DNA from: Thermoplasmatota archaeon
GTDB lineage: Archaea; Thermoplasmatota; E2; UBA202; JdFR-43
NCBI GenBank assembly: GCA_029258955.1
Contig: JAPDJT010000005.1
Coordinates: 1 to 64,000, forward strand
DNA: 64,000 bases
Reading direction: 5' to 3'
How positions within the stretch are numbered: position 1 is the first letter of the stretch; every line of letters starts with the position of its first letter. The notes beneath the pieces were generated by a model that had not been told where the DNA came from, did no database searches, and saw nothing but the letters and a program-made list of their open reading frames with translations. The position numbers and the translations under genes were made by a program. This document shows, piece by piece, positions 9,796 through 37,120 of the stretch.

Positions 9796-12060
9796 ATGAA
9801 AAAAATCTACATTATAATGATAAGCATTTTATTAATTTCAATGTCAGCGGAGCATATAGAATTTAAGTTTTCTTCAATTGAAGAAAAGAGCTATTTAACA
9901 GAAAAAGAAGATTTAACAAAATATGTTAATCCTTTCATTGGTACTGACATTTATTCAAAGCTAGGTGCAATGGGAAGAGCAAATTGTTATCCTGGTGCTG
10001 TGGTTCCTTTTGGAATGGTTCAACTTAGCCCTGATACAGATATGGATAATTTTGCTGGATATGGCTATGAAGATAAATATATTTTAGGCTTTAGCCATAC
10101 CCATTTGAGCGGTTGTGGTTGCCCCGGAATGGGAAACATTCTTGTTATGCCAATTATTGGCGAAATAAAAATTAAGGAAGAAGATTATAAGTCAGTATTT
10201 AGTCATGATGAGGAAGAAGCGACGCCTGGCTATTATATGGTTATGCTTAAAAGCTATGGAATAAAAGCAGAATTAACAACATCAACGAGAGTTGGTTTCC
10301 ATAAATATACTTTTCCCGCCAGTTCAAATGCTCATGTTATAGTAGATGTTACTCATACTTTAGAGGATGATGAACCAATAGATGCTTTTGTTAAGATTAT
10401 TGATAATGAAACTATAGTTGGCTATGTAACTATTCCAAATCCATTTTGTGGTGGTAAAACACCATATACAACCTATTTTGCAATGAAATTTAGTAAGCCA
10501 TTTGACGCCTTCGGAACTTGGAATGGAAATACCATTTATTATGAAAATTCTTCACAAAAAGGAGTTGATATTGGTGCTTTTGTGAATTACACAACATATG
10601 AAGGAGAGATAATAAAAATAAAAGTGGCTATATCTTATGTAGGCATAGAGCAAGCATTACTTAATTTAAAGGAGATTCCACATTGGGACTTTGAAAAAGT
10701 AAAGGAGGAAGCAAAAGAAGCATGGAACAAACTTTTACATTTAATAGAAGTGGAAGGAGGGACAGAAAGGCAGAAAACCATATTTTATACAGCTTTGTAT
10801 CATTGCTTCCTAATGCCCCATATTTTCAATGATATTAATGGCTTGTATATTGGTATGGATGATAAAATATACAATGCATCAGACCATATTCAATATGCAA
10901 CCTTTTCATTGTGGGATACTTTTAGGAGTGAGCATCCCTTACTCACTCTTTTACTTCCATCTGTGCAAAGAGATATGGTAATATCATTAATAGAATATTA
11001 CAAACAAGGGGGATGGTTCCCAAAGTGGCCTTTCCTAAATAGATATACAAATTGTATGATTGGAGACCACGCTGTTGCGGTTATTGCTGATACATATTTA
11101 AAAGGAATAAGAGATTTTGATATAATTACAGCTTATGAAGGATTACGAAAAAGCGCCTTGACTACACCTCCATCAACACATGATTATGAAGGGAGAGTAG
11201 CTCTTCCGTATTATTTGAAATATGGATATGTCCCATATGATAAAATATCTCAATCAGTTTCAAGGACTCTAGAATATGCATATGATGATTGGTGTTTAGC
11301 CCAATTAGCAAAAGAATTGGGCAAAGAAGATGATTATGAAATGTTTATGAAGAGGGCAATGTATTATAGGAATGTTTTTGATAACTTTACTAAATTTATG
11401 CGTCCTCGCTATTCTTCCGGCTCATGGAAACTCCTTTTCTTACCATCAAGTTGGAAAGGATTTACAGAAGGAAATGCTTGGACATATACTTGGTTTGTTC
11501 CTCATGATATAGATGGGTTGATCAAGCTAATGGGAAAAGAAATCTTTATAAAAAGATTGGACCATTTCTTTAAAAGATTTTCATACCCTGCTTGGTATAT
11601 GCCTTTTTCTCATTATTGGCATGGTAATGAGCCAGACCAACATGTTCCATATCTTTATAATTATGCTGGTGAGCCATGGAAGACACAATATATAGTTAGG
11701 AAAATAATGGCAGAGTTATATGATGATGCGCCTAGCGGAATCCCAGGAAATGATGATTGCGGGCAACTTTCTTCATGGTATGTTTTTAGTGCTATGGGCT
11801 TTTATCCTGTTTGTCCAGGAAATACAAGCTATCAAATAGGAAGTCCAATCTTTAGCAAAATAACAATTCATTTAGATGAAAAATATTATGGAGGAAAGGA
11901 ATTTGTGATAATAGCAAAAAATGTTTCTGAAGAAAACATATATGTAAGATCTATTACTTTAAATGGGGAAGAATTAAATAGAACATGGATTAAACATCTA
12001 GAAATTGTAAATGGAGGCACTCTTATTTTAGAAATGAGCAATATTCCAAGAAGAAATTAA
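9796..12060 (+). CDS. GH92 alpha-mannosidase, secreted
   Basis: 754 residues of glycoside hydrolase family 92, whose members are calcium-dependent exo-alpha-mannosidases. Signature stretches are YVNPFIGTD near the N-terminus, GFSHTHLSGCGCPGMGN, LWDTFRSEHPLLTLL, HGNEPDQHVPYLYNYAG and GNDDCGQLSSWYVFSAMGF. A signal peptide (KKIYIIMISILLISMSA) follows ATG 9796. An in-frame ATG at 9739 lies on the target duplication of the adjacent repeat and upstream of the TATA box, so 9796 is the better start. The protein would trim mannose from extracellular glycoproteins, in keeping with the secreted peptidases nearby. Confidence 0.9.
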   Translation: MKKIYIIMISILLISMSAEHIEFKFSSIEEKSYLTEKEDLTKYVNPFIGTDIYSKLGAMGRANCYPGAVVPFGMVQLSPDTDMDNFAGYGYEDKYILGFSHTHLSGCGCPGMGNILVMPIIGEIKIKEEDYKSVFSHDEEEATPGYYMVMLKSYGIKAELTTSTRVGFHKYTFPASSNAHVIVDVTHTLEDDEPIDAFVKIIDNETIVGYVTIPNPFCGGKTPYTTYFAMKFSKPFDAFGTWNGNTIYYENSSQKGVDIGAFVNYTTYEGEIIKIKVAISYVGIEQALLNLKEIPHWDFEKVKEEAKEAWNKLLHLIEVEGGTERQKTIFYTALYHCFLMPHIFNDINGLYIGMDDKIYNASDHIQYATFSLWDTFRSEHPLLTLLLPSVQRDMVISLIEYYKQGGWFPKWPFLNRYTNCMIGDHAVAVIADTYLKGIRDFDIITAYEGLRKSALTTPPSTHDYEGRVALPYYLKYGYVPYDKISQSVSRTLEYAYDDWCLAQLAKELGKEDDYEMFMKRAMYYRNVFDNFTKFMRPRYSSGSWKLLFLPSSWKGFTEGNAWTYTWFVPHDIDGLIKLMGKEIFIKRLDHFFKRFSYPAWYMPFSHYWHGNEPDQHVPYLYNYAGEPWKTQYIVRKIMAELYDDAPSGIPGNDDCGQLSSWYVFSAMGFYPVCPGNTSYQIGSPIFSKITIHLDEKYYGGKEFVIIAKNVSEENIYVRSITLNGEELNRTWIKHLEIVNGGTLILEMSNIPRRN

Positions 12061-15050: not shown

Positions 15051-15056
15051 ACTACT

Positions 15057-15128
15057 GCGGGCGTGGTCTAGGGGTTATGACGCGAGCTTCCCAAGCTCGT
15101 TGCCCGGGTTCGAATCCCGGCGCCCGCA
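15057..15128 (+). tRNA. tRNA-Gly (CCC)
   Basis: Acceptor arm GCGGGCG pairs perfectly with CGCCCGC. The anticodon stem CGAGC/GCTCG carries loop TTCCCAA (anticodon CCC), and the T arm is CCGGG-TTCGAAT-CCCGG, with discriminator A and no encoded CCA. Its 3' end is duplicated at 37100-37120, so it is the integration site of the downstream element. Confidence 0.95.
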
Positions 15129-15132
15129 TAAA
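15112..15132 (+). other. attL core, left attachment site
   Basis: This 21-bp stretch from the T loop through the tRNA 3' end (starts GAATCCCGGCGCCCGC) is repeated exactly at 37100-37120. The adjoining bases differ, so the repeat length is exactly 21 bp. The tRNA gene remains whole. Confidence 0.85.
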
Positions 15133-15174: not shown

Positions 15175-15714
15175 ATGGCAAGAAAGAAAGGCAGGGATAA
15201 AACCGAGACAATAAAACAGCGTGCCATTTATGTTTATCTTCCTTCCATTGAAATGGCAGAGGAATGGAAGAAAAGAGCTGAAAAAGCTGGCATATCCATC
15301 TCAAAGTTTGTTATAGAACATGTTGAAAATTCTTTGAGGCAAGAAGAAGGAGAGGATTTTGTTTCTAGAGCTGACTTAATAAAAAGAATAAGGGAACTTG
15401 AAAATGAAAATAAGGAACTGCAGAAGAAATACGAGATTTTATCGAAAGCATATGAAAAGCTGGAGGAAGAGCTGAAGTCATACAGAAGAATGCCATTTTA
15501 TGAAAAAGAGTATATTGGAGCAAGAGGATATGAGAGGGAACTAATAAAATTGTTCAAGAAAAAGAAAACTATAAGGAGTGAGGAACTGCTGGATGAACTC
15601 GGAGTATCTCCCCATGACACAGCTGCCATAAAGGCAATAAACAGGCAGCTGGAAAATCTAGAATTATATGGCTTAATCGAGCCCGTTATGGGGGGATGGA
15701 AATGGAAAGGATGA
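15175..15714 (+). CDS. Ribbon-helix-helix / coiled-coil DNA-binding regulator
   Basis: 179 residues in three parts. An N-terminal ribbon-helix-helix-like segment (RAIYVYLPSIEMAEEWKKRA ... ISISKFVIEHV) comes first, then a coiled coil (about 65-110, RIRELENENKELQKKYEIL), and last a winged-helix-like C-terminus (TIRSEELLDELGVSP ... INRQLENLELYGLIEPV). It lies beside attL, immediately before the integrase, and its stop overlaps the probable integrase start as ATGA. A role as autoregulator or recombination directionality factor is inferred from position. The TTTACCAGTAAA palindrome in its promoter is a candidate operator. Confidence 0.75.
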   Translation: MARKKGRDKTETIKQRAIYVYLPSIEMAEEWKKRAEKAGISISKFVIEHVENSLRQEEGEDFVSRADLIKRIRELENENKELQKKYEILSKAYEKLEEELKSYRRMPFYEKEYIGARGYERELIKLFKKKKTIRSEELLDELGVSPHDTAAIKAINRQLENLELYGLIEPVMGGWKWKG

Positions 15715-16643
15715 TTTTACTTGATGTAAATGAAATATTAAAGGAATACAGGCAAGATTTAGAAATAATGAACCTAACAGATGAAACTGTAAGAAACTAC
15801 TACTCAATGGTGAAAATTTTCATTGAATTTATGAGAAGAAATGGTTATGACATACTCAATGCAGAAAGATTCGCATTCATTCAGTTCCTCCAGTATTTAA
15901 AAAATGAAAGAAAAATTTCATTCAAAAGAATAAAGTACTATTTCACAGCTTTAGCATCATTCTATGATTTCCTTGTCTATGCTGGTTACATAAACTCAAA
16001 TCCTATTCCAGCAATAAGAAAAAGGTATCTGAAAAGCTATAAAAGAAATGATTCTCCAGCAAAAAGAAAATTGATAAGCGTTGAGGAAATGGCCGCCTTT
16101 ATTAATTCAATTATGGATCCAAGAGACAAAGCAATAGCAATCCTTCTTGCTAAAACAGGAATAAGAAAAGGAGAGCTTATAAGAATAGATGTGGATGATA
16201 TAAACTGGGAGGAAATGAGCATAACTTTAAAGCCAACACCAAAGAGAAGCAACAGAATAGTTTTCTTCGATGCAGAATGTGCAAAAATTCTAAAGAGATG
16301 GCTCAGAATAAGAGAAAAGCTGAATGTGAAAACAAAAGCATTATTTGTAAATCAATATGGAGGAAGATTGGAAAGAAATGGAGTTTATGAAGCAATTGTG
16401 AAATGGGCAAAGAAATTTGGCATATATGATGTAAATTCAGATAAACTGGAGGATCATTTCAATCCTCACTGCTTCCGCCACTGGTTCACAACAATGTTGC
16501 TGAGAAATGGCATGCCAAGAGAATATGTACAGGAACTCAGAGGAGACGCGAGAAACGAGGCAATAGATATTTATCATCATATTGACAAGGAAGAATTAAG
16601 AAAGGCTTATCTAGCTACAATACCAAAGCTGGGTGTGGAGTGA
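15711..16643 (+). CDS. Tyrosine recombinase (integrase of the element)
   Basis: About 310 residues of the phage-integrase/Xer superfamily. An N-terminal SAM-like core-binding domain (DETVRNYYSMVKIFIEFMRR) is followed by the catalytic domain with R in TGIRKGELIRI, HxxR as HCFRHWFTTML and the nucleophile Tyr in EAIDIYHHID. The second His/Trp position is unusual (LRGDARNEA). The start at 15711 is chosen for its ATGA overlap with the regulator; in-frame ATGs at 15696 and 15702 are alternatives. The gene is intact rather than split by integration, unlike SSV-type integrases. It very likely recombined at the adjacent tRNA-Gly. Confidence 0.9.
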   Translation: MILLDVNEILKEYRQDLEIMNLTDETVRNYYSMVKIFIEFMRRNGYDILNAERFAFIQFLQYLKNERKISFKRIKYYFTALASFYDFLVYAGYINSNPIPAIRKRYLKSYKRNDSPAKRKLISVEEMAAFINSIMDPRDKAIAILLAKTGIRKGELIRIDVDDINWEEMSITLKPTPKRSNRIVFFDAECAKILKRWLRIREKLNVKTKALFVNQYGGRLERNGVYEAIVKWAKKFGIYDVNSDKLEDHFNPHCFRHWFTTMLLRNGMPREYVQELRGDARNEAIDIYHHIDKEELRKAYLATIPKLGVE

Positions 16644-16705: not shown

Positions 16706-18289
16706 ATGGAAGGGGGAAAACATTATCGTGATGTTTTAGGAGTATATTGGTGTAGAGAATGTAATGTCCCCCTTCTCTCTAAAAACTGCGGTAATTGTGA
16801 TTCGCAAGGAGAATATGTAGCAATAGATATGAAGCCAGTTTTTTCAAAAGAAAAGGAAATGTATGAAGAATATTTCAAGTTGAAGCTTCCAGATAATTTG
16901 TTTATTTCGAGAAATAGATTAATCTTGGATGGTGCAACTCTTTGCTCATTCAAAATGGATTTTCATAAAATGAAATTAATACTTATTACTGACAGAAAAA
17001 AAGTTTTAAAAAGAATTAAAGAAGCGGAAAATCGAAACAAAGATGAATTTTGGAAGGATGTTAAAAAAGCAAATGAAACATCATTAAATGAAAAGATTAA
17101 TGAAGCAATGGAATTTATTGAAAGAGTTTCTCATAAATATTCAGATCGATTCAAGGTAATTTCATTTAGTGGAGGAAAAGATAGCGAAGTTACTGCAGAT
17201 CTTGTTAAAAAAGTACTGGGTAAAGTGCCTTTATTTTTTGCAGATACCACGCTCGAATATGAAGAGACCATCGAATTCATAAAACGATTTGCTAAGAAAT
17301 ATGGTTTTGAGTTACTCACAGATGAAAATAACGATTTCTATCGTAATGAAAATTGCATTTGGGACATGATCAAAGAATTAGGTCCTCCATCAATCCCTTA
17401 TAGATGGTGTTGTTCAGTATTCAAAGCCTATCCGGTAAACTTATTTCATAAAAAAATAAATGAGAAAACACTAGCTTTCGATGGTATAAGAAAATATGAA
17501 TCCTTTAGAAGAAGGAAATACGAGCAAGTTTCTAGAATTAAAAAGATCGCAAACCAATTAGCTGCATACCCAATTTTTTACTGGAAAGAATTAGATGTAT
17601 GGTTTTACATCTTCTTTAACAAAATGATTTATAACCCTTTGTACGAATATGGTCATAGGAGAGTCGGATGTTGGTTATGTCCAAATGCAAGTCCTTTTAA
17701 CTGTTTTATTAGGAAAAAAACACATCCAGAAAAATGGGGACAATTCGAAAAAGTTTTGTTAAAATATGCTTATGAACATGACAGAGATAAAAATTGGGTT
17801 ATTGAAAACTACTGGAGATTGCGAAGACCAAAAAAGGATAAAGTTCCAAAGGTAAAAAGAGAAGCGAAAGCTAATAACGTATTTTTATACAGGTTTACCT
17901 CACCAATTGACGAGCGCGTGTTTGAATTCTTTAAACCTCTAGGGGAATATCAAGAGAGAATAATCCAGTCTAAAAGCATAGAAGAAAAAGTGATAAAAAT
18001 TGGGTCGGGCAATCCTATTTGCATTAAAGGTTTCATCGGGAAAAAAGAAATTATTGTAGAGATAAAGGAAAAAGACGAAATGAAAAATTTCGAAAGGCAA
18101 TTACTCAAAGCAATAAACTGTGTTGGATGTGGGGGATGCATAGGATATTGTCCCAACGGTGCACTGTACATAAAAAATAAGACGTTAATGATCGATGATT
18201 CGCGATGCACCAAGTGTAAGAAATGCGTAACAGCACCTTGTATCTCATTAAATTATAGGATTGAAAAAGCCATAATATTGGGGGGTTAA
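16706..18289 (+). CDS. PAPS-reductase/DndC-like PP-loop protein with N-terminal zinc ribbon and C-terminal ferredoxin
   Basis: 527 residues. An N-terminal zinc ribbon (WCRECN ... CGNCDS, about 14-34) is followed by a variable domain, and then a PAPS-reductase/ATP-pyrophosphatase domain with PP-loop FSGGKDSEVTADL near 153. Cys motifs YRWCCSVFK (about 235) and GCWLCPNASPFNC (about 321-333) follow, the second resembling the GCWxC of DndC. The C-terminus is a ferredoxin module (CVGCGGCIGYCP, then CTKCKKCVTAPC, about 471-515). Known relatives either reduce sulfonucleotides or, as DndC, take part in DNA phosphorothioation. It ends 1 nt before the DrmA-like gene and heads the operon. DNA sulfur modification is an inference; no DndA, DndD or DndE was found. 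Confidence 0.8.
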   Translation: MEGGKHYRDVLGVYWCRECNVPLLSKNCGNCDSQGEYVAIDMKPVFSKEKEMYEEYFKLKLPDNLFISRNRLILDGATLCSFKMDFHKMKLILITDRKKVLKRIKEAENRNKDEFWKDVKKANETSLNEKINEAMEFIERVSHKYSDRFKVISFSGGKDSEVTADLVKKVLGKVPLFFADTTLEYEETIEFIKRFAKKYGFELLTDENNDFYRNENCIWDMIKELGPPSIPYRWCCSVFKAYPVNLFHKKINEKTLAFDGIRKYESFRRRKYEQVSRIKKIANQLAAYPIFYWKELDVWFYIFFNKMIYNPLYEYGHRRVGCWLCPNASPFNCFIRKKTHPEKWGQFEKVLLKYAYEHDRDKNWVIENYWRLRRPKKDKVPKVKREAKANNVFLYRFTSPIDERVFEFFKPLGEYQERIIQSKSIEEKVIKIGSGNPICIKGFIGKKEIIVEIKEKDEMKNFERQLLKAINCVGCGGCIGYCPNGALYIKNKTLMIDDSRCTKCKKCVTAPCISLNYRIEKAIILGG

Positions 18290-18290
18290 G

Positions 18291-21200
18291 ATGAAGTTGG
18301 AGGAAAAAATCGTAGAGGAAATTTATGAAAGAATAAAAAACAGACTTTTAGGAAAAACAAATGAATATGATAGGATATTGGATAACAATCCAGATTCCAT
18401 AATATTTGTGGGTAAGTTGCAATCAAAGGAGACCAGCGAAAAATATACTCAATATAAGACAATAATAAGCCCTAATTCAATTGGAATGGTTTTTAATCTT
18501 GTTGTAAAAAATCCCGACCCAACCATAGATGTAATTGTAAATTTTTCCATTTACTATAGAGTATATCCTTCATTTGAAGAGCAGAAAAATGCTACAATAA
18601 GAGAAGATATAAGAAAAGTTTGGAAAAAAGAAACAATAAAAACTACTTTTTCTTGTAAAGTAAAGGAAGGATCATATAATTTTAAGGAAGAATTAAAAAA
18701 TAAAATTAAAGAAGCAATAGAGGGTAAATCTGGAAAACCATATTATGAAACAGTTTATAGAGCAAAAGGAAATGCTAATTTTATTCCAGAAAAGCACCTA
18801 AAATCTGAAGAAGATTTTATAAAATATTTAAAAAGCAGAAATGGCAAGATATATGATATACCATACAACATAGATTTAAAGGTAGATATTACAGAATGTA
18901 ATAACCATGAATTTAACATCAATATTACACTAGTTAATAATACATCGAGTAAATCCCATGTCTTTTGTACAACGCTTTTTGATCCAGAAATAAAAATAGA
19001 ATTAAAAGATAATAAGCTTGAAAGACAAAAACTGGAATTCATGCACGATGATGAAGGTAAAATATTTGATATTCCTGGAAAAGGTATTAACTGTTCTGTT
19101 GAATATGATGAGGAAAGTAACATTATAAAAACAACGGTAATACCTACGTACAAACAAAAAAGATTAAAACCGCGTTCATCCGTAGGGAAATGGACTCCTT
19201 ACTTCAAGGATTTGTCAACCGATCCTCTTCCTATTTTGGATGGGATATATTCAGAAATGGAAAACTACTTGAATACACTATCAAAAGAAAAAGTTGCAGA
19301 TAATGAGTTAGTAAAAGTAATGATGGAGCAATTTGAGGATGAAATTAAACGTTTTAGGAAAGGAATAGAATTTTTGCGACGAGATGAGAAGGCATTAATG
19401 GCTTTTAAGTTAATGAATAGAGTAATGTTCGAAGCTACGCGTTCATCTGATGGCCGATGGTATATATTCCAAATAATATTCATTGTATCCAATTTAGATT
19501 GTTGTTTATCTCAAGAAGTGGATAAGGTGGAGGTTTTGCATGTACCTACAGGAGGAGGAAAAACATGGAGTTATCTAGGGTTAGTTATTTTCTCTATTTT
19601 CTATGAGAGATTAAATAAAAAAGACTTTGGTGTAACGGCATGGATAAAGTTTCCTCTAAGGATGCTGTCACTACAACAACTTGAGATTATTACAACCTTT
19701 ATTTCCTATGCAAATAAAATTAAAGAAGAAACAGAATCTATTAGAGATAGTGATCCTATCTCCGTCGGTTATCTAGTAGGAGGAAAAAATACCCCAAACA
19801 CTTACAAACAAGCTAAGGAGTGGAAAGAGGATTTTAAGGTAGTAACAGACTGTCCATTTTGCAAGGGGAAAATAGAGATAGAATTTGATGATGATAAAGA
19901 GAGAGTGTACCATAAATGTACAAAGTGTGGAAAAATATTACCCGTAATGGTTATAGATTATGAAATTTATAGATATTTACCCTCTGTCATCGTTTCGACT
20001 TTGGATAAAGCTGCTGTCTTAAATTACAATTATCGAGCAAAAAGTTTATTTGGTGGCCCAATAATAAAATGTGAAAAAAATTATGGTTATTTACCATATG
20101 GCCCCAACTGGTGTCTAAAAAGTAGATCAAATCAAAATTTCTCAGGATGTAAATACTATAAAAATGGAAAATGTACAAAAAATAAAATAAATGGGAAACC
20201 TCCTATTTTGTTGATTCAAGATGAACTCCATATGGTAAGAGAATTTGATGGTTGTCTTGATAGTTACTTAGAAGGCATCATAGAAGAAGTAATAAAGGGT
20301 TATGGTGGAGCTGGTCTAAAGGTAATTGCTCCCAGCGCCACTGCTGCCGGTGTAGAAAGACAGGTGAAGCACCTATATTATAAGAAAGAGGCCAGAAAAT
20401 TTCCGTTATTTAAGGAATTTTATTTTGAGGAAAAAGAAGAAATTCATAGGATTTCAGTAGGTATTTTACCAGTAGGTAGAGCGATAAATTGGGCTACATG
20501 GCATATTATAAAGGAAATAGAAAAAACATTGCAACAGATGACTAAAGAGGCCAAAGATTTGAAGGATAAAGACAGATACCAAGTTTTGGAAAAATACTAT
20601 AACATAATACTTGCTTATCATAGGTCCAAAAGAGATGCAAATGAACTCCAAAGTGGTTTGATGGGAATAATTAATGAAGAATTAAGAAGAGAGGGATTCG
20701 AGCCCATCAATATTAGTAAAACAGAAATAATAACAGGTGAGAAAAGCTTGGGGGAATTGAGAAAATTAATGGAAAGAATCGTCACTAACGATAGGAGTAA
20801 AAGGATAAAATTAATCGGATCAACTCTTATAATTTCACACGGCATCGATTTTGATGAGTTAAACTTAATGGTATTTAGAAGCATGCCTAAAAGCGTATCA
20901 GAATACGAACAAGCAAGGAGTAGAGTTGGTAGAAAATTCCCTTCTCTTATATTCATAATATATCATGGCAATTTAGCAAGAGATCAAAGTTTTTACAAGT
21001 ACTTCATCCCCTTCCATGGAAATGTCAATAAATATGTTGAGAATATCCCCTTAAATAGATGGGCATCTAAATCAGTGGATTTGATGGCTCCTTCCGCAAT
21101 TTTATCCGTTATTCATTCTTATTTCATTGATAACAAAAATTTAAACATGAGTTTCATGGAATGTAGAGAATTAGTGAGGGCGATAAAATCCAAAAAATTA

Positions 21201-21563
21201 ACTAAGAATGAAATAATAGAGAAAGCTAGCGAATATTTGTATTTAAATTCAGCACCCCGTGCTTACCAAGAAAAGTTTAAAGAGGATGTTGAGCATTGGC
21301 TACAACTCCTGTTAGACTCGTGTCATTCCAAATCCCCACGAAATCAATTAGCCGAGATATATAAAAAAGAGGATAGGCCTGTTTACAGCCTTAGAACCAT
21401 TGAAAAGGAAGTCTCATTCTATCCTACCCCTGAAACCCATAGTATAGAGCCCGAAATTACCAAATCTGTAAATGTTGAACCTTCTCCTGAATATAGATAC
21501 ACGTCAACTGATGAAGAGCTAGAGGGTATTTACGTGGATACTGAAGAGGAGGTGAATGCATGA
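18291..21563 (+). CDS. drmA: DrmA-like DISARM helicase
   Basis: 1090 residues. The N-terminal 400 residues lack motifs I recognise. Then come Walker A as HVPTGGGKTWSYL (about 418-430), a zinc finger (CPFCKG ... CTKCGK, about 525-550), a DEAH-like Walker B as LLIQDELHMV (about 641), motif III-like APSATAAG, and an SF2 C-terminal lobe with IGSTLIISHGIDF and motif VI as EYEQARSRVGRKFPS. This layout and its position before a DUF1998 gene and a PLD gene match DrmA, the DISARM helicase. A GGGGGGTT Shine-Dalgarno precedes the ATG, and the stop overlaps drmB by 4 bp. Confidence 0.8.
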   Translation: MKLEEKIVEEIYERIKNRLLGKTNEYDRILDNNPDSIIFVGKLQSKETSEKYTQYKTIISPNSIGMVFNLVVKNPDPTIDVIVNFSIYYRVYPSFEEQKNATIREDIRKVWKKETIKTTFSCKVKEGSYNFKEELKNKIKEAIEGKSGKPYYETVYRAKGNANFIPEKHLKSEEDFIKYLKSRNGKIYDIPYNIDLKVDITECNNHEFNINITLVNNTSSKSHVFCTTLFDPEIKIELKDNKLERQKLEFMHDDEGKIFDIPGKGINCSVEYDEESNIIKTTVIPTYKQKRLKPRSSVGKWTPYFKDLSTDPLPILDGIYSEMENYLNTLSKEKVADNELVKVMMEQFEDEIKRFRKGIEFLRRDEKALMAFKLMNRVMFEATRSSDGRWYIFQIIFIVSNLDCCLSQEVDKVEVLHVPTGGGKTWSYLGLVIFSIFYERLNKKDFGVTAWIKFPLRMLSLQQLEIITTFISYANKIKEETESIRDSDPISVGYLVGGKNTPNTYKQAKEWKEDFKVVTDCPFCKGKIEIEFDDDKERVYHKCTKCGKILPVMVIDYEIYRYLPSVIVSTLDKAAVLNYNYRAKSLFGGPIIKCEKNYGYLPYGPNWCLKSRSNQNFSGCKYYKNGKCTKNKINGKPPILLIQDELHMVREFDGCLDSYLEGIIEEVIKGYGGAGLKVIAPSATAAGVERQVKHLYYKKEARKFPLFKEFYFEEKEEIHRISVGILPVGRAINWATWHIIKEIEKTLQQMTKEAKDLKDKDRYQVLEKYYNIILAYHRSKRDANELQSGLMGIINEELRREGFEPINISKTEIITGEKSLGELRKLMERIVTNDRSKRIKLIGSTLIISHGIDFDELNLMVFRSMPKSVSEYEQARSRVGRKFPSLIFIIYHGNLARDQSFYKYFIPFHGNVNKYVENIPLNRWASKSVDLMAPSAILSVIHSYFIDNKNLNMSFMECRELVRAIKSKKLTKNEIIEKASEYLYLNSAPRAYQEKFKEDVEHWLQLLLDSCHSKSPRNQLAEIYKKEDRPVYSLRTIEKEVSFYPTPETHSIEPEITKSVNVEPSPEYRYTSTDEELEGIYVDTEEEVNA

Positions 21564-23119
21564 AAAGAAGCATAACTGGTGCTATGTTTTACTATCATGA
21601 GGGTGCTTATTTCACTACAGCAAAAAATTATCGGGCTAGGGTTAAAAAGTGGGAAGAACGCCCATTGAGAATAGAAAACGAGGAGTCTGTAAAGAAAAAA
21701 TTTCTTAGAGAAATAGAAAGAGTGACTAAGACAAAAATAAAAATGGATGGTTTAGTGTTTATAGAGCCGTACAAAATAGAATATGAAATTAGTCCTTTGT
21801 TTTTTTATTGTTCAAATAATGATTGTGGGTGGAATATAAAATTTGATAATGTTGAACAATTAACAAAATATATTGAAAAGGAAAAGAATTTTAGATGCAA
21901 GAGGTGCGGTAGTTCATTAATCCAGTCTGGACATGTTTTTGCATGTACCTGTGGAAATATTCAAGACATGGATGAGAAATACTGTAGTGGAAAAAATAAG
22001 ACCCATACAAAACAGAAAATGGATTTTATACGTCCCTCGATATATGAAGTATATACTTGGAAGTATAAATGTCGTATATGTGGTAGAGAAATATGGCCTA
22101 TAATAAAGAAATGTGAAAATTGTGGAGAAAAAATGGACTTGAAACCCACCGAGGCTAGTGGATTAACAACTCCTTTAAGTTTTACTACACCTGCTTTTGA
22201 GACGCCTAATTATAAGTGGATTGCTAAATATTTAGAAATTAAATTATCCGATGAGGAAAAACAATTTTTAATTAAACATAAAGACAAGGTAGATGAAAAT
22301 AAATATTTCAAAAACAAGATCGAAGAATTTTTAAGGAACGATTTTAAAGAGTATGAATATATTTTAGAACGATTATCAGACTATGCCGCCATTAATGAGG
22401 GTATAAAATATCCTCCAAAAACTTATCCAGATTTAGGTATCAAATTCTATAAAACGGATAGAATAAATTTAGTTAAAGGAGTGTATGCGTATATTGTGAA
22501 TGCCATTAAACCTTCTTCTAAGACAAGTTTTAACTTTTTTATTCATAGTGGAAAATACAATGTGTTGGCTAATAAAATAGAAAACACTGAAGGGATATTA
22601 TTAGAATTTGATAGAAGCAAAATAATAGAATGGATGGAAGAAAATAATTTCCTTCAATTTTTACCCAGTAAAAAAGATTTGAAAAAATGGTTTATTGAAA
22701 TGGGGATGGAGGGAAGCATCAATAAAAAACTGCCAAATGATATCACAAATAAAATAATAACGCTTATCCATACAATTTCACATGGTTTCATCGTGAGTAT
22801 GCCCACTATAAGTGGCGTGAGTATAGACTCTGTTAGTGAACTATTGTTTCCAGAGATACCTGCTGTATTGCTTTATACTACATATACAACCTCAATTGGT
22901 CATTTGGAGAGTTTATTTGATAACATGATGGACGAATGGATAGCAAAAACAAAAGACGATACTCTAAAAAATTGTGTACATGATCCCATATGTCTAAAGG
23001 AGGACCATGCATGTGCAGGATGTATAATGATAAGTGAGGTAGTTTGTAGTAAATTTAACGAATTTCTAGACAGGAGATACGTAATAGGCGATGAGGATAT
23101 AAAGGGGTTTTGGGAATGA
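21560..23119 (+). CDS. drmB: DrmB-like DISARM protein (DUF1998)
   Basis: 519 residues. The first half has several zinc-binding pairs (CSNNDCGW, CKRCGSS, CTCGN, CRICGRE, CENCGE). The C-terminal 130 residues carry the DUF1998 pattern: IHTISHGFIVSMP, SELLFPEIPAVLLY, TTSIGHLESLFD, CVHDPICLKEDHACAGCIM, then SEVVCSKFNEFLDRRYVIG. DrmB pairs with DrmA in DISARM, where the complex binds phage DNA with unprotected 5' overhangs in published systems. GGAGGTGA precedes the start; both ends overlap neighbouring genes as ATGA, implying coupled translation. Confidence 0.85.
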   Translation: MKRSITGAMFYYHEGAYFTTAKNYRARVKKWEERPLRIENEESVKKKFLREIERVTKTKIKMDGLVFIEPYKIEYEISPLFFYCSNNDCGWNIKFDNVEQLTKYIEKEKNFRCKRCGSSLIQSGHVFACTCGNIQDMDEKYCSGKNKTHTKQKMDFIRPSIYEVYTWKYKCRICGREIWPIIKKCENCGEKMDLKPTEASGLTTPLSFTTPAFETPNYKWIAKYLEIKLSDEEKQFLIKHKDKVDENKYFKNKIEEFLRNDFKEYEYILERLSDYAAINEGIKYPPKTYPDLGIKFYKTDRINLVKGVYAYIVNAIKPSSKTSFNFFIHSGKYNVLANKIENTEGILLEFDRSKIIEWMEENNFLQFLPSKKDLKKWFIEMGMEGSINKKLPNDITNKIITLIHTISHGFIVSMPTISGVSIDSVSELLFPEIPAVLLYTTYTTSIGHLESLFDNMMDEWIAKTKDDTLKNCVHDPICLKEDHACAGCIMISEVVCSKFNEFLDRRYVIGDEDIKGFWE

Positions 23120-23961
23120 AAGAGTTAACTCCAGAACTAATTAACAAAGAGATAGTGCCTGCGATAAAGGAGTTATTTCAAACCAGAAAATATCTCAACG
23201 GATCCTCTATTATACAAGTATTTATCAAAAAACTCAATCTCCCTCATGATATAGCTGAAGAAGCTCTAAGATTATTGATCGGAGAGAAAGTTTTATTAAA
23301 TGTGAAACAACCAAAGGATTTATACAGTGATTATTTTAAATTAAATTACGAAATAATTGATAGTTATATTTATACTCCAAGTCCTGAGGAAGAACAAGAA
23401 TCCGAAATAATTAAAAGCGGAATAAAAAGTCTTTCTACCTATAAGGAAGAGGTTTATCCAGTCTTTGAGTTACCTCCTCATATAATTAGACAGTTAAATG
23501 TTGATTTTATCAGGCAGAAAGAATTATTTAGAAATTTGATATCAGGAGCGAAAAAAGAAATAAAAATAACATCTCCGTTTATGGATGAAACTGGATTAGC
23601 AAACTACATTTATGAATTAATTGAAAAATGCAAAAATGGAGTGAAAATTAAGATATTGACTCGCAATGACGAGAGTAGAAAAAGAGTTATAAACCTGTTA
23701 AAATCAACGTTATCAAAAATAAACCCAGATTTAGTTGAAATAAGATCTTACCACGAAACAGATGAGTTCGGTGTAACAGAATCTATTCATTCAAAAATGA
23801 TAATTGTTGATGACATTGAGGTATATATTGGAAGCGGAGAGATAAGAAAGAACAGTATTTTTGGGGTATTGTGCGAAGCAGGTATTTATATTAAAGGCCC
23901 TATTGCAAAAATATACTCAAAGTTTTTTGATGTCATATGGGGTGAGAGCCATCCAGTCTAG
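23116..23961 (+). CDS. drmC: DrmC-like phospholipase D-family protein
   Basis: About 281 residues from ATG 23116, which overlaps the drmB stop as ATGA. An N-terminal helical region is followed by a PLD fold: KKEIKITSPFMDETGLANYI opens the core, and a single HKD motif (IHSKMIIVDDIEVYIGSGEIRKN, in two halves) follows at about 228-250. One HKD per chain implies a dimeric active site. In DISARM DrmC is a PLD-type nuclease candidate, dispensable in some systems. The stop lies about 30 nt inside the next gene. Confidence 0.8.
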   Translation: MKELTPELINKEIVPAIKELFQTRKYLNGSSIIQVFIKKLNLPHDIAEEALRLLIGEKVLLNVKQPKDLYSDYFKLNYEIIDSYIYTPSPEEEQESEIIKSGIKSLSTYKEEVYPVFELPPHIIRQLNVDFIRQKELFRNLISGAKKEIKITSPFMDETGLANYIYELIEKCKNGVKIKILTRNDESRKRVINLLKSTLSKINPDLVEIRSYHETDEFGVTESIHSKMIIVDDIEVYIGSGEIRKNSIFGVLCEAGIYIKGPIAKIYSKFFDVIWGESHPV

Positions 23962-26164
23962 ACAACTTAGATGTTATCTTCCAAAAGACATTGCGATACG
24001 TTATAAAGATGGTGGGGGAAAAGAAAGAGAACTTAAACCCGGAAAAATATTTGAGATTTATTGCAGAGTGATTAATTACTATGCTTCAAAACGAAGAAAT
24101 CTGCTTATTTTCTTTCCCATCGAAAATTTTTACTATATACCTTTATTTGCTCTATCATTGTACTATTTTTATTTAGAGAGGAAAAATGTGGGACAATCGC
24201 AAATCTTGGTAATTTCGGGCAAATATAAACATCTGGAAAAATTATACCAAAACATATTCCACACATCAAGTAAACATTATGTCAAGTATTTTGCAAATAT
24301 TAAATTTACCTGTCGGTTACCCATTGTAAATGGAAACTATAATGCTATAGTCATAGATACGGCAAATTTTTCATCGTTACAACTTAGAAAGATTCTTGAA
24401 TATTGCCAAGATATAGACAAATTTTTATTGTTTGTATCTTCATTTTTTGATATAAATTTATACCAGTTTGTAAGGGAAAAATTAGATATTGGTTTCTTTG
24501 CTATTAATCCGAATGTGATAAGAGAGTATATCAAGGAAAACGAGAGAGAATTGTTGATCATAGATAATAATATACTAGATGTCCCAATTGATGTTTTCAT
24601 AAAAAATTTTTATGAGAAGATAAAAATAGAGTTTGTAAATGATGAATCTATAAATAATTTATTGACAAGATGTTGGAAAAACTATTACTACATTCTGGAT
24701 AAATATAAGGGTGATAAAAGAATTTATAAGTTTATAATGTTTTATCGGTTTACCTTGCGATATCTTTCCCAAGTTTATTTGCCCTCGAGTTTACTAGAAA
24801 AATATTCATCGTTTTACTCTAACATAAAATCACCGGACAAACTAATTGAACAGTTATTAAGGATATCTAGCGAATTGGATGAAAATATTCTCGAGTCTTC
24901 TGCACTCGATATAAAAAGATTGGCTGAATTGATTGAAGCTGGAAAAAAGAGAGTTTTTGAAAAAATAATTAAACAACTTGCTAAAACTGGAAGAAAGGTT
25001 CTTATAGTGGTTCATTCACTAAATGAAGGAAAAGCAGTTAAAGAATTGTTATGTACTCTTTTTGGTTGCGACGAAAAAGAAATCAAAAAATATGGTATAG
25101 AAGTTCATATAATGAGAGCGATTTTCAATATCAACAACATCTACGATTGGGTTATATTCCCTACCCCAACATATCATTATAAATCTTTTTCATTAATATC
25201 ATCGCCTCTTATAAAAAATGTTATTTTCTTGGCTTACCCTATAGAATATAAGTATTACCTAAAATTTATTGAATCTTTAGATAAAGAATGGAAAAAATAC
25301 ACCATAGAGGAATCACTCAGACCTTTTATCGATAATAAGCATCTAGAAAAGCTGAAGAAACATCACATAACAATAAAAACCTTCAGCAGAAATGAAGATA
25401 TTAAAAAAATATATGAAACATGGGATGATATAATAAAAGAAATTTTATCTGAGGATGAGGAACCACTAATTAACTTAGAAAACGATTACAGAAAAGTTGT
25501 TGTTCCGCTTGGTATTAAACAGTATTTAGTAAAGTTTGAGAATGGTGTAGAGTTAGTTTATGATGAGAATGAGCGAATCGATGTAATTGATGAAAACTAC
25601 AAGATTAAAACAAAACATGCATCAGAGATAAAACCCGGTGATTTGGTCATTATTTATGATCAAGAGTTCCGTAAAAATCGTTATGAATCACTCATAGAAA
25701 AATTGAAAGAGGAACCAAAATATAAGAGACATTTAATAAACATAGATATCTGGAAAAGAAGAGTTGCGGAGCTTTTGGAAGATAAAAATCTTGCAGAAGT
25801 TTTGACTAAAATGAAAAAGAAAGGTAGTAGACTACAACATCCCTCAACTTTATATGCATGGAAAATGGGATATGTAATAGGGCCAAGAGATCCAAAAGAC
25901 ATCCAAAGAATTGCTGAACTGTTTAATGATGAAGTATTAAAAACATTATGGAAAGACATCGCTATCTCTATTAAAAGAATACGTGGATTTAATATAGAGG
26001 CTGGAAAAATCTTATCTCGTACAATAAAAGAAATATCGGAGGGAATTTTTATGACCCAACCTCAAATACAAAAAGAGGATGTATTAGGTATTACGGTAGC
26101 CGAAATAGCCCAAAATATTGATATTTTGAGAGTAATAAGTAAGGAAATAATAAAAGAAGAATAG
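23930..26164 (+). CDS. drmE: DrmE-like large protein, last gene of the DISARM-like operon
   Basis: About 744 residues from ATG 23930; GTG 23942 is an alternative start, and both overlap drmC. The fold looks like a degenerate helicase pair: EIYCRVINYYASKRRNLLIF and LVISGKYKHLEKLY early, GRKVLIVVHSLNEGKAVKEL and YDWVIFPTPTYH later, with no intact Walker A. The C-terminal 170 residues have IKPGDLVIIYDQ and WKRRVAELLEDKNLAEVL, plus STLYAWKMGYVIGPRDPKDI, a pattern I associate with DrmE-type proteins. DrmE usually precedes drmA in class 2 DISARM; here it is last. The drmE assignment is tentative, but membership in the operon is clear. Confidence 0.6.
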   Translation: MSYGVRAIQSRQLRCYLPKDIAIRYKDGGGKERELKPGKIFEIYCRVINYYASKRRNLLIFFPIENFYYIPLFALSLYYFYLERKNVGQSQILVISGKYKHLEKLYQNIFHTSSKHYVKYFANIKFTCRLPIVNGNYNAIVIDTANFSSLQLRKILEYCQDIDKFLLFVSSFFDINLYQFVREKLDIGFFAINPNVIREYIKENERELLIIDNNILDVPIDVFIKNFYEKIKIEFVNDESINNLLTRCWKNYYYILDKYKGDKRIYKFIMFYRFTLRYLSQVYLPSSLLEKYSSFYSNIKSPDKLIEQLLRISSELDENILESSALDIKRLAELIEAGKKRVFEKIIKQLAKTGRKVLIVVHSLNEGKAVKELLCTLFGCDEKEIKKYGIEVHIMRAIFNINNIYDWVIFPTPTYHYKSFSLISSPLIKNVIFLAYPIEYKYYLKFIESLDKEWKKYTIEESLRPFIDNKHLEKLKKHHITIKTFSRNEDIKKIYETWDDIIKEILSEDEEPLINLENDYRKVVVPLGIKQYLVKFENGVELVYDENERIDVIDENYKIKTKHASEIKPGDLVIIYDQEFRKNRYESLIEKLKEEPKYKRHLINIDIWKRRVAELLEDKNLAEVLTKMKKKGSRLQHPSTLYAWKMGYVIGPRDPKDIQRIAELFNDEVLKTLWKDIAISIKRIRGFNIEAGKILSRTIKEISEGIFMTQPQIQKEDVLGITVAEIAQNIDILRVISKEIIKEE

Positions 26165-28873: not shown

Positions 28874-29092
28874 ATGAAACTGAAGCCATGGGAAGAAATT
28901 GTAGGCTGGTTAGAAGAAATAAAAGATCTGAATGGAAATATAATTGCAAAGATATCTGGATATAGTGTGTTGCTTCCTAAATATATGAAAAAGAAACTGG
29001 AGAAATGCAAGGGAAAGAAGATAGGAATATTAAGGACAGACATTAAAGGAAAGGAATATTTGTTAAGAGTAGAGAATGGAAAAAATAATTAA
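28874..29092 (+). CDS. Small protein of unknown function preceding a recombinase
   Basis: 72 residues from ATG 28874 (MKLKPWEEIVGWLEEIKDLN); an ATG at 28853 is in frame but sits on the TATA box. It is basic, with a predicted beta-rich middle (IIAKISGYSVLLP) and no recognised family; SpoVT/AbrB-like or OB-like folds are possible. It overlaps the following recombinase gene by 17 bp, so the two are co-expressed. A role as recombination accessory factor is inferred from position only. Confidence 0.55.
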   Translation: MKLKPWEEIVGWLEEIKDLNGNIIAKISGYSVLLPKYMKKKLEKCKGKKIGILRTDIKGKEYLLRVENGKNN

Positions 29093-29801
29093 AGGAAAAT
29101 CAAAGAATACGATAAAGAACTATAAGTCAACTCTCAGAAAATTTATCAGAATCACAGGAAAGAAAATTGAAAAAGCAAGCATTGAAGATGTGAATAAATT
29201 TCTAGAAAAATTGAAGGAAGAAATGGAACCATCATCTGTTGCAAGACATGCCTATGCAATAAAATATTTTCTGAAAATGATGGGAAAATATGATGTTGCG
29301 AGTAAAATAGAAGTCGACCATATACAAAAGTTGCCACCAACACTTACTGAAAAAGAAATTGAAAAACTGATAAAAGCCATAGAGAGTATTGATGAATACA
29401 TCGTATTTACTCTAGGTTATTTCCTTGGGTTGAAAGCATCCGAAGTAGCAGGCATAAAAATAGAGGATATTGACTTTACTGAACGTAAAATAAAGATAAG
29501 AGAAAGAGTATTACACATTCCTTCGCATGTTATTGAACCGTTGAAAAGATGGATACAGAGCAACAATTTAACTACTTATTTGTTTGAGGAAAATGGAAGA
29601 AAAGTTTCACCGGAACGTATTTCTTCAATTTTCAGAAAATTGGCTGAAAGAGCAGGCATAAATGCTGCCTTCCATTCGCTGCGTAACACAAGAATATACG
29701 AAATGATCGACGAAAAGAATGCCGAAGAAATAATGAAATTTGCTGGCTTTAAAAGCATTGTATCAGTGGCAAGATTTTATGTTTTGAAAGAAAAACGATA
29801 A
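29076..29801 (+). CDS. Second tyrosine recombinase, with substituted catalytic residues
   Basis: 241 residues of the Xer/phage-integrase family, with a short core-binding domain (SKNTIKNYKSTLRKFIRITG) and a catalytic domain. The first catalytic Arg position reads GLKASEV instead of GLRxSE; HxxR is kept as HSLRNTR; the usual GH before the nucleophile reads AGFKSIVS; Tyr is present in RFYVL. With R-to-K and H-to-F changes, recombination activity is doubtful. It may be a degenerate copy, a DNA-binding helper, or a resolvase of altered mechanism. It shares a promoter with the 72-residue protein. Confidence 0.75.
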   Translation: MEKIIKGKSKNTIKNYKSTLRKFIRITGKKIEKASIEDVNKFLEKLKEEMEPSSVARHAYAIKYFLKMMGKYDVASKIEVDHIQKLPPTLTEKEIEKLIKAIESIDEYIVFTLGYFLGLKASEVAGIKIEDIDFTERKIKIRERVLHIPSHVIEPLKRWIQSNNLTTYLFEENGRKVSPERISSIFRKLAERAGINAAFHSLRNTRIYEMIDEKNAEEIMKFAGFKSIVSVARFYVLKEKR

Positions 29802-31318: not shown

Positions 31319-31517
31319 TGTTATAAGTAAACAGAAGCTTGCTCGTAGTAAAATTTTTAGTATCTTAATTTATAAAAATTTATGGTGAGTAAGTTTATAG
31401 ATATTCACTTTAACTCATATTTAGAAAGTTATGTGAATAAAACTATATTTTGCGTTAGTAGAAATTCCACATGTCGCCTTGGAAAATGTCACAGTTTCAA
31501 GAGGGTAGAAGGTGAAT

Positions 31518-32201
31518 ATGGTGATACCACAGGTTAGTTGTAAAATATATAAGTCAGAGATGATGAAAATAAACTTCTTACAAGAGCGATTAGAAAATTA
31601 TCGGAAGGAATATCGCGAAGAGGGAGTATCTAAACCTATTGTCGAGAACATAGAGAATTTTTCTTTAGCGAATAATGGAGTGGAATTTGTGTTTTTATTT
31701 GATTATATAGTGTCAATACCTTATAGAGAAGAAACACAAAAAGTGTTGAAAACAGCTAAAGCAGAAGTAAAAATACTAGACCTACAGAATTATAATTTAT
31801 ATTTAATATATTCATCATCAAAAATTGCAGATGGTATCAGGATTCGTTTAAGTAGAGCTTTATCTAATGTAGATGATTTTATCGAGAAAATTACAATACC
31901 TACAAGTGTATTAAAAGATATAGAAAATAACGATGCCATCGAAATAAAATATGGTTGGTGGAATGACATTGAAACGTATGCAAAAAAGGGTGCACTTAAA
32001 GGTAATCTTTCTAGAAGTAGATTTTATAGTGAGTTTGAAAATTCCGGAGAACCTACACTAATAACTTTTGAATCCAGAGGAACAGGAAGAACTATCAGAA
32101 TAACATCTCAAGGGGTGATTACTTTTTATGGACAAAATATTACAAAACAAGAAATTGAAAATTATGTAAGGCAATGGTTGATCCCGAGGTTGAGATTATG
32201 A
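31518..32201 (+). CDS. Uncharacterised protein, coupled to the following membrane protein
   Basis: About 227 residues from ATG 31518; a GTG two codons earlier and a GTG one codon later are alternatives near an AAGGTGA ribosome-binding site. I recognise no family. An N-terminal helix (NFLQERLENYRKEYREEG) precedes alternating beta strands (VEFVFLFDYIVSIPY, YNLYLIYSSSKI), ending with a compact segment (GRTIRITSQGVITFYGQN). No catalytic motif is obvious. The stop overlaps the next start as ATGA, so the pair probably forms one functional unit. It lies in the element between MBL-fold and nuclease genes, which suggests defence by association. Confidence 0.6.
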   Translation: MVIPQVSCKIYKSEMMKINFLQERLENYRKEYREEGVSKPIVENIENFSLANNGVEFVFLFDYIVSIPYREETQKVLKTAKAEVKILDLQNYNLYLIYSSSKIADGIRIRLSRALSNVDDFIEKITIPTSVLKDIENNDAIEIKYGWWNDIETYAKKGALKGNLSRSRFYSEFENSGEPTLITFESRGTGRTIRITSQGVITFYGQNITKQEIENYVRQWLIPRLRL

Positions 32202-32899
32202 ATGAAATAAATAACCTTTTTTGGATCATTGTAAGTGCAATAATTTCTTTTTTTGTTGGGTTATTCTTAGATGCGTTCTTACCAGATAAATGGAGGACAA
32301 AATTCCAGCTTCAGAAGAAAAAATTTTCTAAATGGAGGAAAAATCCATCATATATTGTTGGAATTTCTTCAAGGATCGATTTGAAACAAAACATAGATTT
32401 AGAAGAATTTAAAATTTCTTTAAAAAAGTTATTCTCTTCCAAAAATCCAACAATAAGAGGATCCGAAATTCTTTTTAAAAATTCCCAATCTGAGTATGAT
32501 ATCGATATTATATTACAGCCAGCTTACGAAGAAAGTGGGGACGAAGAACATGGTGGTGTATTACAAGTTTATAGTCTAAACATAACTACTGAGTCAAAAG
32601 TTAAGTATAGGGATTTAAGAAATCAAATAGATGATTTGAGGGCAACTCTCGATGGAATTGAAAAGATAATAATAAGAGAATTCAACGCATATCCAGCAAG
32701 AAGAACTCTATATGTTGAAATAGAATATTTGGAAGAATTTTCAGAAATTTTAGAAAATCTAAAAGCAAAACAAATTATGGGGATTGTCAAAGATACCAAT
32801 GCCCAATTCACATATTACAAGAATAGACTTACAATTGAAGGTGCTATTAATTCAAAAACAATCCAATGGTTTAAGGATATAGTAGCATATGTGGGATGA
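32198..32899 (+). CDS. Uncharacterised single-TM protein
   Basis: About 233 residues from ATG 32198, chosen for its ATGA overlap with the preceding stop. One N-terminal membrane helix (LFWIIVSAIISFFVGLFLDAF) is followed by a soluble domain with strand-rich segments (SEYDIDIILQPAYEESGDEE, TLYVEIEYLEEFSEIL). No recognised family. The topology (short outside end, cytosolic domain) would suit a membrane-linked partner for the upstream protein, perhaps an effector or sensor at the membrane. Confidence 0.6.
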   Translation: MNEINNLFWIIVSAIISFFVGLFLDAFLPDKWRTKFQLQKKKFSKWRKNPSYIVGISSRIDLKQNIDLEEFKISLKKLFSSKNPTIRGSEILFKNSQSEYDIDIILQPAYEESGDEEHGGVLQVYSLNITTESKVKYRDLRNQIDDLRATLDGIEKIIIREFNAYPARRTLYVEIEYLEEFSEILENLKAKQIMGIVKDTNAQFTYYKNRLTIEGAINSKTIQWFKDIVAYVG

Positions 32900-33099: not shown

Positions 33100-33720
33100 A
33101 TGGAGATATTGGTAGTTCGAGATAATGACATAGATATTGATATAAAAAAATGCACTAATATTCTAAATCAAATCTGTAAAAATGTAAAATTCAAAGGTTA
33201 TAACACCCCTATTAATCTTGGTAATCCAGATACTTATGTAGATATGGAAAAAGAAACCACCATTTTAAATCAAAAACTCTCTCATAGAAAGAGAGATTAT
33301 ACTCTATATGTTACTTATAGGAAACACCCGGATAATTACTTTGCCCATTCGATCAGAAACACCATGATTTGGTCATTTTGGGGATGGGAATATTATACCA
33401 ATCTGCCTCTGGAAAATGGTCTATTTTATATTATAGCAGATATCCTTGCGTTACGAATCGATAGAAGTTTTAGGCACAATGAATTAACTGGTTGTATTTA
33501 CGATTTTCTATGGGAGAAAACAGGTATAGATATTGGTATGAAAATGGCTCATATATGTGAAGGATGCCTTGAGAGGATCAAAAATAAAGTAGAAGGGTGC
33601 AAGACCTTGGAAGGTATTTTAATGGATTTGGTTGAAATATTGAATGTATTATCCAATGCATCGAGATGGGGGAAAAGTGTTTTTGATATATATATATGGA
33701 TGAGGATGCATTGGGTTTAG
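33100..33720 (+). CDS. Uncharacterised Cys/His protein, partner of the nuclease-TIR fusion
   Basis: 206 residues with a GAGGTGA Shine-Dalgarno 7 nt upstream. The first half is mixed alpha/beta (DYTLYVTYRKHPDNYFAHSI). The second half carries a conserved-looking H-x4-GCxYDF segment (FRHNELTGCIYDFLWEK) and AHICEGCLERI, suggesting a metal site made of His and Cys residues. I cannot name the family. It overlaps the next gene by 25 bp, so they are translated together; a sensor, adaptor or protease role for this partner is open. Confidence 0.6.
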   Translation: MEILVVRDNDIDIDIKKCTNILNQICKNVKFKGYNTPINLGNPDTYVDMEKETTILNQKLSHRKRDYTLYVTYRKHPDNYFAHSIRNTMIWSFWGWEYYTNLPLENGLFYIIADILALRIDRSFRHNELTGCIYDFLWEKTGIDIGMKMAHICEGCLERIKNKVEGCKTLEGILMDLVEILNVLSNASRWGKSVFDIYIWMRMHWV

Positions 33721-34538: not shown

Positions 34539-34917
34539 TTATTAGCTTTGGCTACCCAAGTCAAAATATCAAAAATATATTGGAGGTAAGAGGATGGAGG
34601 AAAGTACTTGACAGTATAATATACGGGTTTATTTTTAAGCATTTCATGATACCTTCTGAATGTTTCAGTTTGAAATAATATGAGAAAATTAAAATTTAGC
34701 AATTTTCTCATCTATATTTATTATATTTGGTAAAAGAGCAAGAGATATGATAATTATGATTTGGCAAAATATCTTATATACGTCTATCCTGCATATAACT
34801 TTTAGGGTTTGCTTTATCTTATGCGGAAGCGGGCTTAATGTATTATCACTAACTAAACATTGCATGTCGGTCATTATTTTTATCGGAAATTATTTCAATT
34901 CTATAATTTTTGAGAAT

Positions 34918-37099: not shown

Positions 37100-37120
37100 G
37101 AATCCCGGCGCCCGCATAAA
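37100..37120 (+). other. attR core, right attachment site
   Basis: An exact 21-bp copy of the tRNA-Gly 3' segment at 15112-15132. It contains only the T-stem and acceptor 3' half, so it is not a working tRNA gene. Host sequence resumes immediately after it. Confidence 0.85.

Follow-up and report, generated by a model that had tools for sequence, protein, structure and literature searches.

The window analysed here, the first 64,000 nucleotides (forward strand) of contig JAPDJT010000005.1 from the 1.7-Mb draft genome of a Thermoplasmatota archaeon (GCA_029258955.1), carries an operon which resembles the defence system DISARM (defence island system associated with restriction-modification) and has a PP-loop enzyme in the place of the DNA methylase. 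Such a sulfur-transfer enzyme in the methylase position of DISARM is apparently a real, recurring, rare and so far undescribed variant. Open reading frames (ORFs) and profile searches delimit five densely packed genes at 16706-26164:

16706..18289, plus strand: BrxP/long-SspD-like protein with an N-terminal zinc (Zn) ribbon, a PP-loop PAPS-reductase-like domain and a C-terminal 2[4Fe-4S] ferredoxin
18291..21563, plus strand: DrmA, a superfamily 2 (SF2) helicase of the DISARM/YprA type, with the motifs VPTGGGKT, QDELH and SRVGR
21560..23119, plus strand: DrmB (DUF1998/MZB; PADLOC DrmB 3e-44, MZB 3.5e-5, 7s9v_B 2.5e-4)
23116..23961, plus strand: DrmC, a phospholipase D (PLD)-type nuclease with a single HxKx4D motif (HSKMIIVDD)
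23930..26164, plus strand: DrmE, with a DrmE_C domain after a predicted degenerate SF2-helicase-like core without Walker A

The genes follow one another with a 1-nt gap, two overlaps of 4 nt each and, between drmC and drmE, an overlap of 32 nt. DrmC starts at the ATG at 23116 (a TTG at 23110 is a possible alternative) and DrmE at the ATG at 23930, while a TTG at 23861 would open a longer ORF. A bacterial-type promoter scan, which is ill-suited to archaea, stayed at chance level. The PP-loop gene is almost certainly a genuine member of the operon. An initial annotation of this DNA had proposed the same five-gene order, coordinates and tight packing, the identities of DrmA, DrmB, the PLD-type DrmC and DrmE, and the GCWLC motif and C-terminal 2[4Fe-4S] ferredoxin of the PP-loop protein: the ORF coordinates and profile matches agree with it on all of these points, and the profile searches which it had suggested for all five proteins recovered the family of each.

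DrmA matched the PADLOC DrmA model with 1.9e-105, and its profile aligned with the DrmA structure of Serratia DISARM (7s9v_A) at E = 8.6e-89, compared to 0.0017 for the helicase YprA. The 7s9v alignment leaves out the N-terminal trigger-loop region and the C-terminal region with the proposed methyl-sensing V1296 (Serratia). The NCBIfam equivalog gave 310 bits, which is under its cut-off of 950, therefore the protein is a divergent DrmA. DrmC was recognised by PLDc_2 (1.9e-12) and by the DrmC profile (9.5e-14), DrmE by DrmE_C (6.9e-30) and by NCBIfam DrmE_fam (155 bits, cut-off 80). The predicted structure of DrmE has a mean confidence (pLDDT, predicted local distance difference test) of 73, and its matches in the PDB are weak ones to SF2 helicases (TM-scores of about 0.3), so that the degenerate SF2-like fold predicted for its core serves as a hint only.

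Class 2 DISARM is defined by DrmA, DrmB, DrmC, DrmE and the cytosine methylase DrmMII (PMC9252829). DrmA, DrmB, the PLD nuclease DrmC and DrmE are all united in the operon of the window, whereas drmMII or any other methylase gene is absent from it and the BrxP-like gene comes first; furthermore, drmE stands last, whereas it precedes drmA in the methylase-type relatives sampled. Strictly defined, class 2 requires that methylase, so the operon falls outside DISARM in this narrow sense.

The BrxP-like enzyme and its chromosomal counterpart

The protein encoded by the first gene matched the Pfam families PAPS_reduct (1.8e-41) and Fer4_7 and contains the SFSGGKDS motif, the CC and GCWLC cysteine motifs and two 4Fe-4S sets in its ferredoxin. 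PADLOC ranked BrxP first (228 bits, 4.3e-68), followed by SspD (42 bits) and DndC (35 bits, 2.6e-9). Thus BrxP/long-SspD-like fits better than the label "DndC-like", which the protein had received initially. The BrxP match covers positions 102-500 of the 779 of the model; a genuine BrxP of type 4 BREX (bacteriophage exclusion) scores 818 and the housekeeping copy of the host 163.

In type 4 BREX (brxP, brxC, pglZ, brxL) a PAPS-reductase replaces the methylase and makes phosphorothioate (PMC12839542, PMC11931770). The operon of the window likewise has a BrxP-like PAPS-reductase/ferredoxin enzyme in the place of the methylase, but it lacks BrxC, PglZ, BrxL and the DUF4007 fusion, and the neighbours of the enzyme are an integrase and drmABCE, a helicase/nuclease module of the DISARM type. 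Full-length relatives (28-30% over 94-96%) were found on a Treponema plasmid (L112) and on two faecal contigs (L183, L184), and each of them is followed by a phosphorothioation cassette composed of DUF4007/SspB, an ATPase of the SspC type and a cysteine desulfurase. The likeness to the SspABCD systems with long SspD includes the Zn ribbon and the ferredoxin, whereas SspB/DUF4007, SspC and the cysteine desulfurase are absent from the window operon. The two faecal contigs (MT835506.1 and MT835493.1) are unannotated "Bacteriophage sp." sequences whose long-SspD/DUF4007/SspC/desulfurase cassettes look complete; another faecal contig (L185) holds a BREX-4-like locus.

It could be supposed that the enzyme is a housekeeping protein of sulfur assimilation that came to lie beside drmA by chance, and its family is indeed common: of the 390 genomes sampled from the phylum, 129 have a match. 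However, the host encodes a separate housekeeping copy on another contig (G000:C24:7407-9158, locus L029), which consists of a Zn ribbon, PUA, PP-loop and ferredoxin and passes two PRK13795 NCBIfam cut-offs (594.9 bits against 588 and 573.6 against 456). The operon copy stays far under these equivalog cut-offs (269 and 252 bits, respectively), is devoid of the ECGxH motif of sulfonucleotide reductases according to a motif check, abuts drmA and recurs beside it in a second genome (locus L032, see below). A tree of 21 rows resolves three clades: one of the chromosomal proteins (100/100), one of BREX-4 BrxP with long SspD (99/98) and one of the window protein with its counterpart from L032 (100/99); in a tree of 42 rows the last of these groups with BREX-4 BrxP and long SspD (88/93). 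The deeper joins of the PP-loop tree are uncertain because of long branches. The chromosomal archaeal PRK13795 proteins share the Zn ribbon, PP-loop and ferredoxin with the operon enzyme, but differ from it by the PUA domain of the host copy, by their separate clade and by the absence of drm neighbours at L029, L174 and L175, whose surroundings were read. The architecture of the host copy is found family-wide among the chromosomal paralogues and is suggestive of RNA thiolation. A common housekeeping enzyme with no recurring link to drm genes, which the initial annotation had named as the outcome that would overturn its proposal, is therefore not what was found: chance adjacency is extremely improbable and is in practice refuted by the conserved L032 operon. 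A recent duplication of the housekeeping copy as the origin of the operon enzyme was rejected as well.

PP-loop thiolases of tRNA exist, and one could imagine that the operon enzyme also thiolates RNA (tRNA) and that the operon serves an RNA-directed defence or a stress response. The PUA RNA-binding domain of the host paralogue would be in line with this notion. However, the PUA domain is absent from the operon copy and from the phosphorothioate-type relatives, and in the operon the enzyme is accompanied by a DNA helicase and by a nuclease of the PLD type; we consider a role in RNA thiolation highly unlikely.

Recurrence of the operon and the gene beside drmAB

About 85,000 species genomes were scanned with a three-sequence DrmA alignment and the best 80 loci were kept. 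This inspection of DrmA homologues for neighbouring PAPS-reductase genes, which had been proposed as a check of the initial annotation, revealed an operon with identical gene content, order and packing on JALTZH010000176.1 (archaeon MAG S141), the locus L032. The proteins of the two operons are 71% (BrxP), 57% (DrmA), 57% (DrmB), 54% (DrmC) and 43% (DrmE) identical. The differences at four-fold sites (0.59-0.73) are alike across all five genes, therefore these seem to have diverged as one unit, in which BrxP is the most tightly constrained. The recurrence of all five genes in unchanged order on an independent contig means that the association is beyond chance. No BrxP-like gene is in range at any other of the best 80 loci, and no further brxP-drm example was detected in the sampled genomes of the phylum (390) and class (80). 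Scans of viral contigs gave no locus with BrxP and one locus with DrmA, which has methylase-like neighbours; the plasmid and phage scans with BrxP returned BREX-4, Ssp and phage relatives, and drm genes were absent from those of their surroundings that were inspected. The BrxP-containing variant is real but rare in the collections searched.

In a FastTree of 88 DrmA proteins, the window and L032 sequences (100) are sister (98) to 15 DrmA proteins, almost all of them archaeal. A radical S-adenosylmethionine (radical-SAM) gene is present at 13 of these 15 loci, and at these 13 no methylase is detectable nearby except at L035. The matches of the radical-SAM proteins to B12-binding or Radical_SAM range from weak to moderate. 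These operons resemble that of the window in their sister DrmA clade, in the position of drmE after drmC and in being mostly methylase-free; they differ by a radical-SAM enzyme instead of BrxP, which is usually encoded by the last gene. The mostly archaeal drmABC-drmE loci with B12/radical-SAM genes are L021, L034, L035, L037, L040, L048, L051, L059, L072, L074, L084, L091 and L100. At two of them a DGQHR-type protein is encoded between the radical-SAM gene and drmA (L091:7756-9228 and L100:7701-9122); these proteins match Pfam DndB with up to 8e-11, and that of L091 matches PADLOC DpdB with 9e-13.

A mainly clostridial group has the arrangement UvrD-drmA-drmB-NERD, and its next slot is occupied by a radical-SAM gene (17 loci) or by an N6 methylase gene (8 loci), some of these loci being near-copies. 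The radical-SAM form was seen at L036, L043, L049, L050, L052-L055, L058, L063, L068, L069, L075-L077, L079 and L107, the N6 adenine methylase form at L089, L094, L096, L102, L103, L108, L110 and L111. This exchange, together with the radical-SAM sister clade, points to a slot beside drmAB in which modification modules can replace one another and which BrxP would fill in the window. The combination of DISARM with radical SAM in this sense was not found in the literature searched: ten papers mention both, and none of them seems to join the two, as far as titles, abstracts and counts can tell. The radical-SAM drmABC-drmE operons may be even more novel than the variant with BrxP, and they suggest that the exchange of modification in this family is commoner than described.

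Possible self-marking without a methylase in the operon

DISARM has been described as drmABC combined with a methylase, and how DrmAB discriminates self from non-self is still debated. In the mobile element that carries the operon (see below), motif IV of DNA methylases is absent from all ORFs of at least 100 aa, and Pfam gave no match to a methylase, which agrees with the initial observation that methylase motifs occur nowhere in the element. We favour the interpretation that the operon represents a mobile DISARM lineage which has no methylase and in which, as in type 4 BREX, DNA is marked with sulfur by a BrxP-type enzyme, and regard the case for it as evenly balanced. The narrower claim that the BrxP-like enzyme puts a sulfur mark on DNA stands at the same level: it may well be so, and it may equally not. 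The identification of this mark as phosphorothioate is more tentative. Similarly tentative is the broader view of a third chemistry in DISARM, namely a lineage whose self mark is sulfur (phosphorothioate) instead of methylation and which belongs to a wider methylase-less branch with iron-sulfur enzymes, either BrxP-like or B12/radical-SAM, in the modification slot. The initial interpretation is partly supported: a methylase-free DISARM-like operon with a sulfur-chemistry partner is upheld, and the association is recurrent and the enzyme distinct from housekeeping; the DndC likeness gives way to BrxP/long SspD, and self-marking by sulfur, perhaps phosphorothioation, stays a conjecture.

In such a lineage DrmA-DrmB, DrmE and the PLD nuclease DrmC would constitute the invader-sensing and DNA-destroying module, and the BrxP-like enzyme would hold the modification slot. 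As its homology to BrxP of type 4 BREX and to SspD/DndC suggests, the enzyme would activate DNA with ATP, and sulfur would come from a host cysteine desulfurase, a candidate for which is encoded at C3:35168-36247 (310 bits). The sulfur mark, with phosphorothioate as the first candidate, would be set on host DNA and, being read by DrmAB, would keep it off self; DrmAB, DrmC and DrmE would attack DNA that does not carry the mark. The least supported step is the recruitment of the enzyme: DrmA, DrmB or DrmE would have to bring it to DNA and thus substitute for the site-recognition (SspB/DndE-type) and ATPase (SspC/DndD-type) partners.

Several facts weigh against this interpretation. Known phosphorothioate systems need DndD and DndE or SspB and SspC, and partners of the DndE/SspB and DndD/SspC/BrxC types are not in the operon. 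The best 80 DrmA loci and some 400 genomes from the phylum yielded a single other example of the operon. BrxP has long branches, and its grouping with the phosphorothioate branch is moderately supported in the 42-row tree. The AlphaFold model of the BrxP-like protein, made from a two-sequence alignment, had a pLDDT of 38 and was discarded. Finally, L032 encodes a PF01555 N4/N6 methylase (10481-11404) downstream of its operon, separated from drmE by about 0.7 kb and by an ORF on the opposite strand, which is the main caveat to the label "methylase-less". As to partners elsewhere in the window genome, DndD had no match there (DndE was not searched by profile), and DUF4007 had none in the genome or phylum, but the control genomes gave none either.

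The methylase of L032 raises the question whether self is marked by a methylase encoded in trans, with BrxP as an accessory. The window genome does encode methylases: C1 has two of the PF01555 family, and two of the HsdM type are on C20 and C13, while no cytosine-C5 methylase was above cut-off. However, each of them adjoins its own candidate restriction or specificity gene (partners called by sequence reading), all on contigs other than that of the element. The L032 methylase in turn is set apart from its operon by the ORF on the opposite strand, and the homologues of this methylase that the window genome encodes belong to those other cassettes. Marking in trans is in our opinion unlikely. The initial annotation had foreseen that a methylase for the locus might be encoded elsewhere in the genome: methylases are indeed there, but each has a candidate partner of its own.

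Another possibility is that the BrxP-like enzyme is an effector or a sensor, acting for example on invader DNA or nucleotides after DrmAB has been triggered, and that self is recognised by DNA structure alone. DrmAB has been reported to load on 5'-overhang DNA, to be autoinhibited by a trigger loop and to have a lower ATPase activity on methylated DNA, and DISARM restricts phages without methylation sites (PMC9142583). Discrimination by DNA structure of this kind, as well as the missing partner proteins of the known phosphorothioate machines, would suit an effector or sensor. On the other hand, the better-characterised defence relatives DndC, SspD and BrxP are modification enzymes, and other modification-type enzymes occupy the operon across the same lineage; we hold an effector or sensor role to be rather unlikely. 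Modification by 7-deazaguanine (Dpd-type) was ruled out, as the operon contains no Dpd-type gene.

The literature searched, 5.39 million papers, contains no description of DISARM linked with a PAPS reductase; one paper mentions both but does not connect them, and a survey of the YprA family mentions neither PAPS reductase nor phosphorothioate. The initial suggestion that the pairing may be undescribed is upheld within this literature; an earlier mention is possible. If sulfur marking by the BrxP-like enzyme is true and phosphorothioate is made, the DrmAB module would accept chemically unrelated self marks, and DNA would be modified by sulfur along a route outside Dnd, Ssp and BREX-4. The question of the self mark would then become directly testable by exchanging the modification modules.

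The integrative element and its cargo

The following features surround the operon:

15056..15129, plus strand: tRNA-Gly (CCC), the integration target (ARAGORN)
15112..15132, plus strand: left copy of the attachment (att) repeat GAATCCCGGCGCCCGCATAAA, a perfect 21-bp direct repeat overlapping the 3' end of tRNA-Gly
15696..16643, plus strand: XerA/XerD-type tyrosine integrase just inside the left att (Phage_integrase 1.7e-28; recomb_XerA_Arch 9.9e-55)
37100..37120, plus strand: right copy of the att repeat, a perfect 21-bp direct repeat, bounding an element of about 22 kb

The 21-bp att repeats at tRNA-Gly and the XerA-type integrase indicate that an integrative element of 22 kb carries the operon as cargo. 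The flank adjoining the element has up to 72% DNA identity to genomes of the same family; therefore the contig is native, and a contaminant contig was ruled out.

Apart from the operon, the element encodes a second integrase, a protein with a metallo-beta-lactamase fold, a restriction endonuclease of the Mrr type and a HEPN_Swt1 protein. The second tyrosine integrase (29076-29801) is shorter and suggests a composite or nested element. The Mrr-type nuclease (33696-34538) is fused to a nucleoside-deoxyribosyltransferase-like domain and is followed by the HEPN_Swt1 protein (34747-36108); both are likely to be further defence cargo. For an uncharacterised gene pair at 31512-32899, the genome contig C1 contains a close copy not far from its end (L167:11400-12787).

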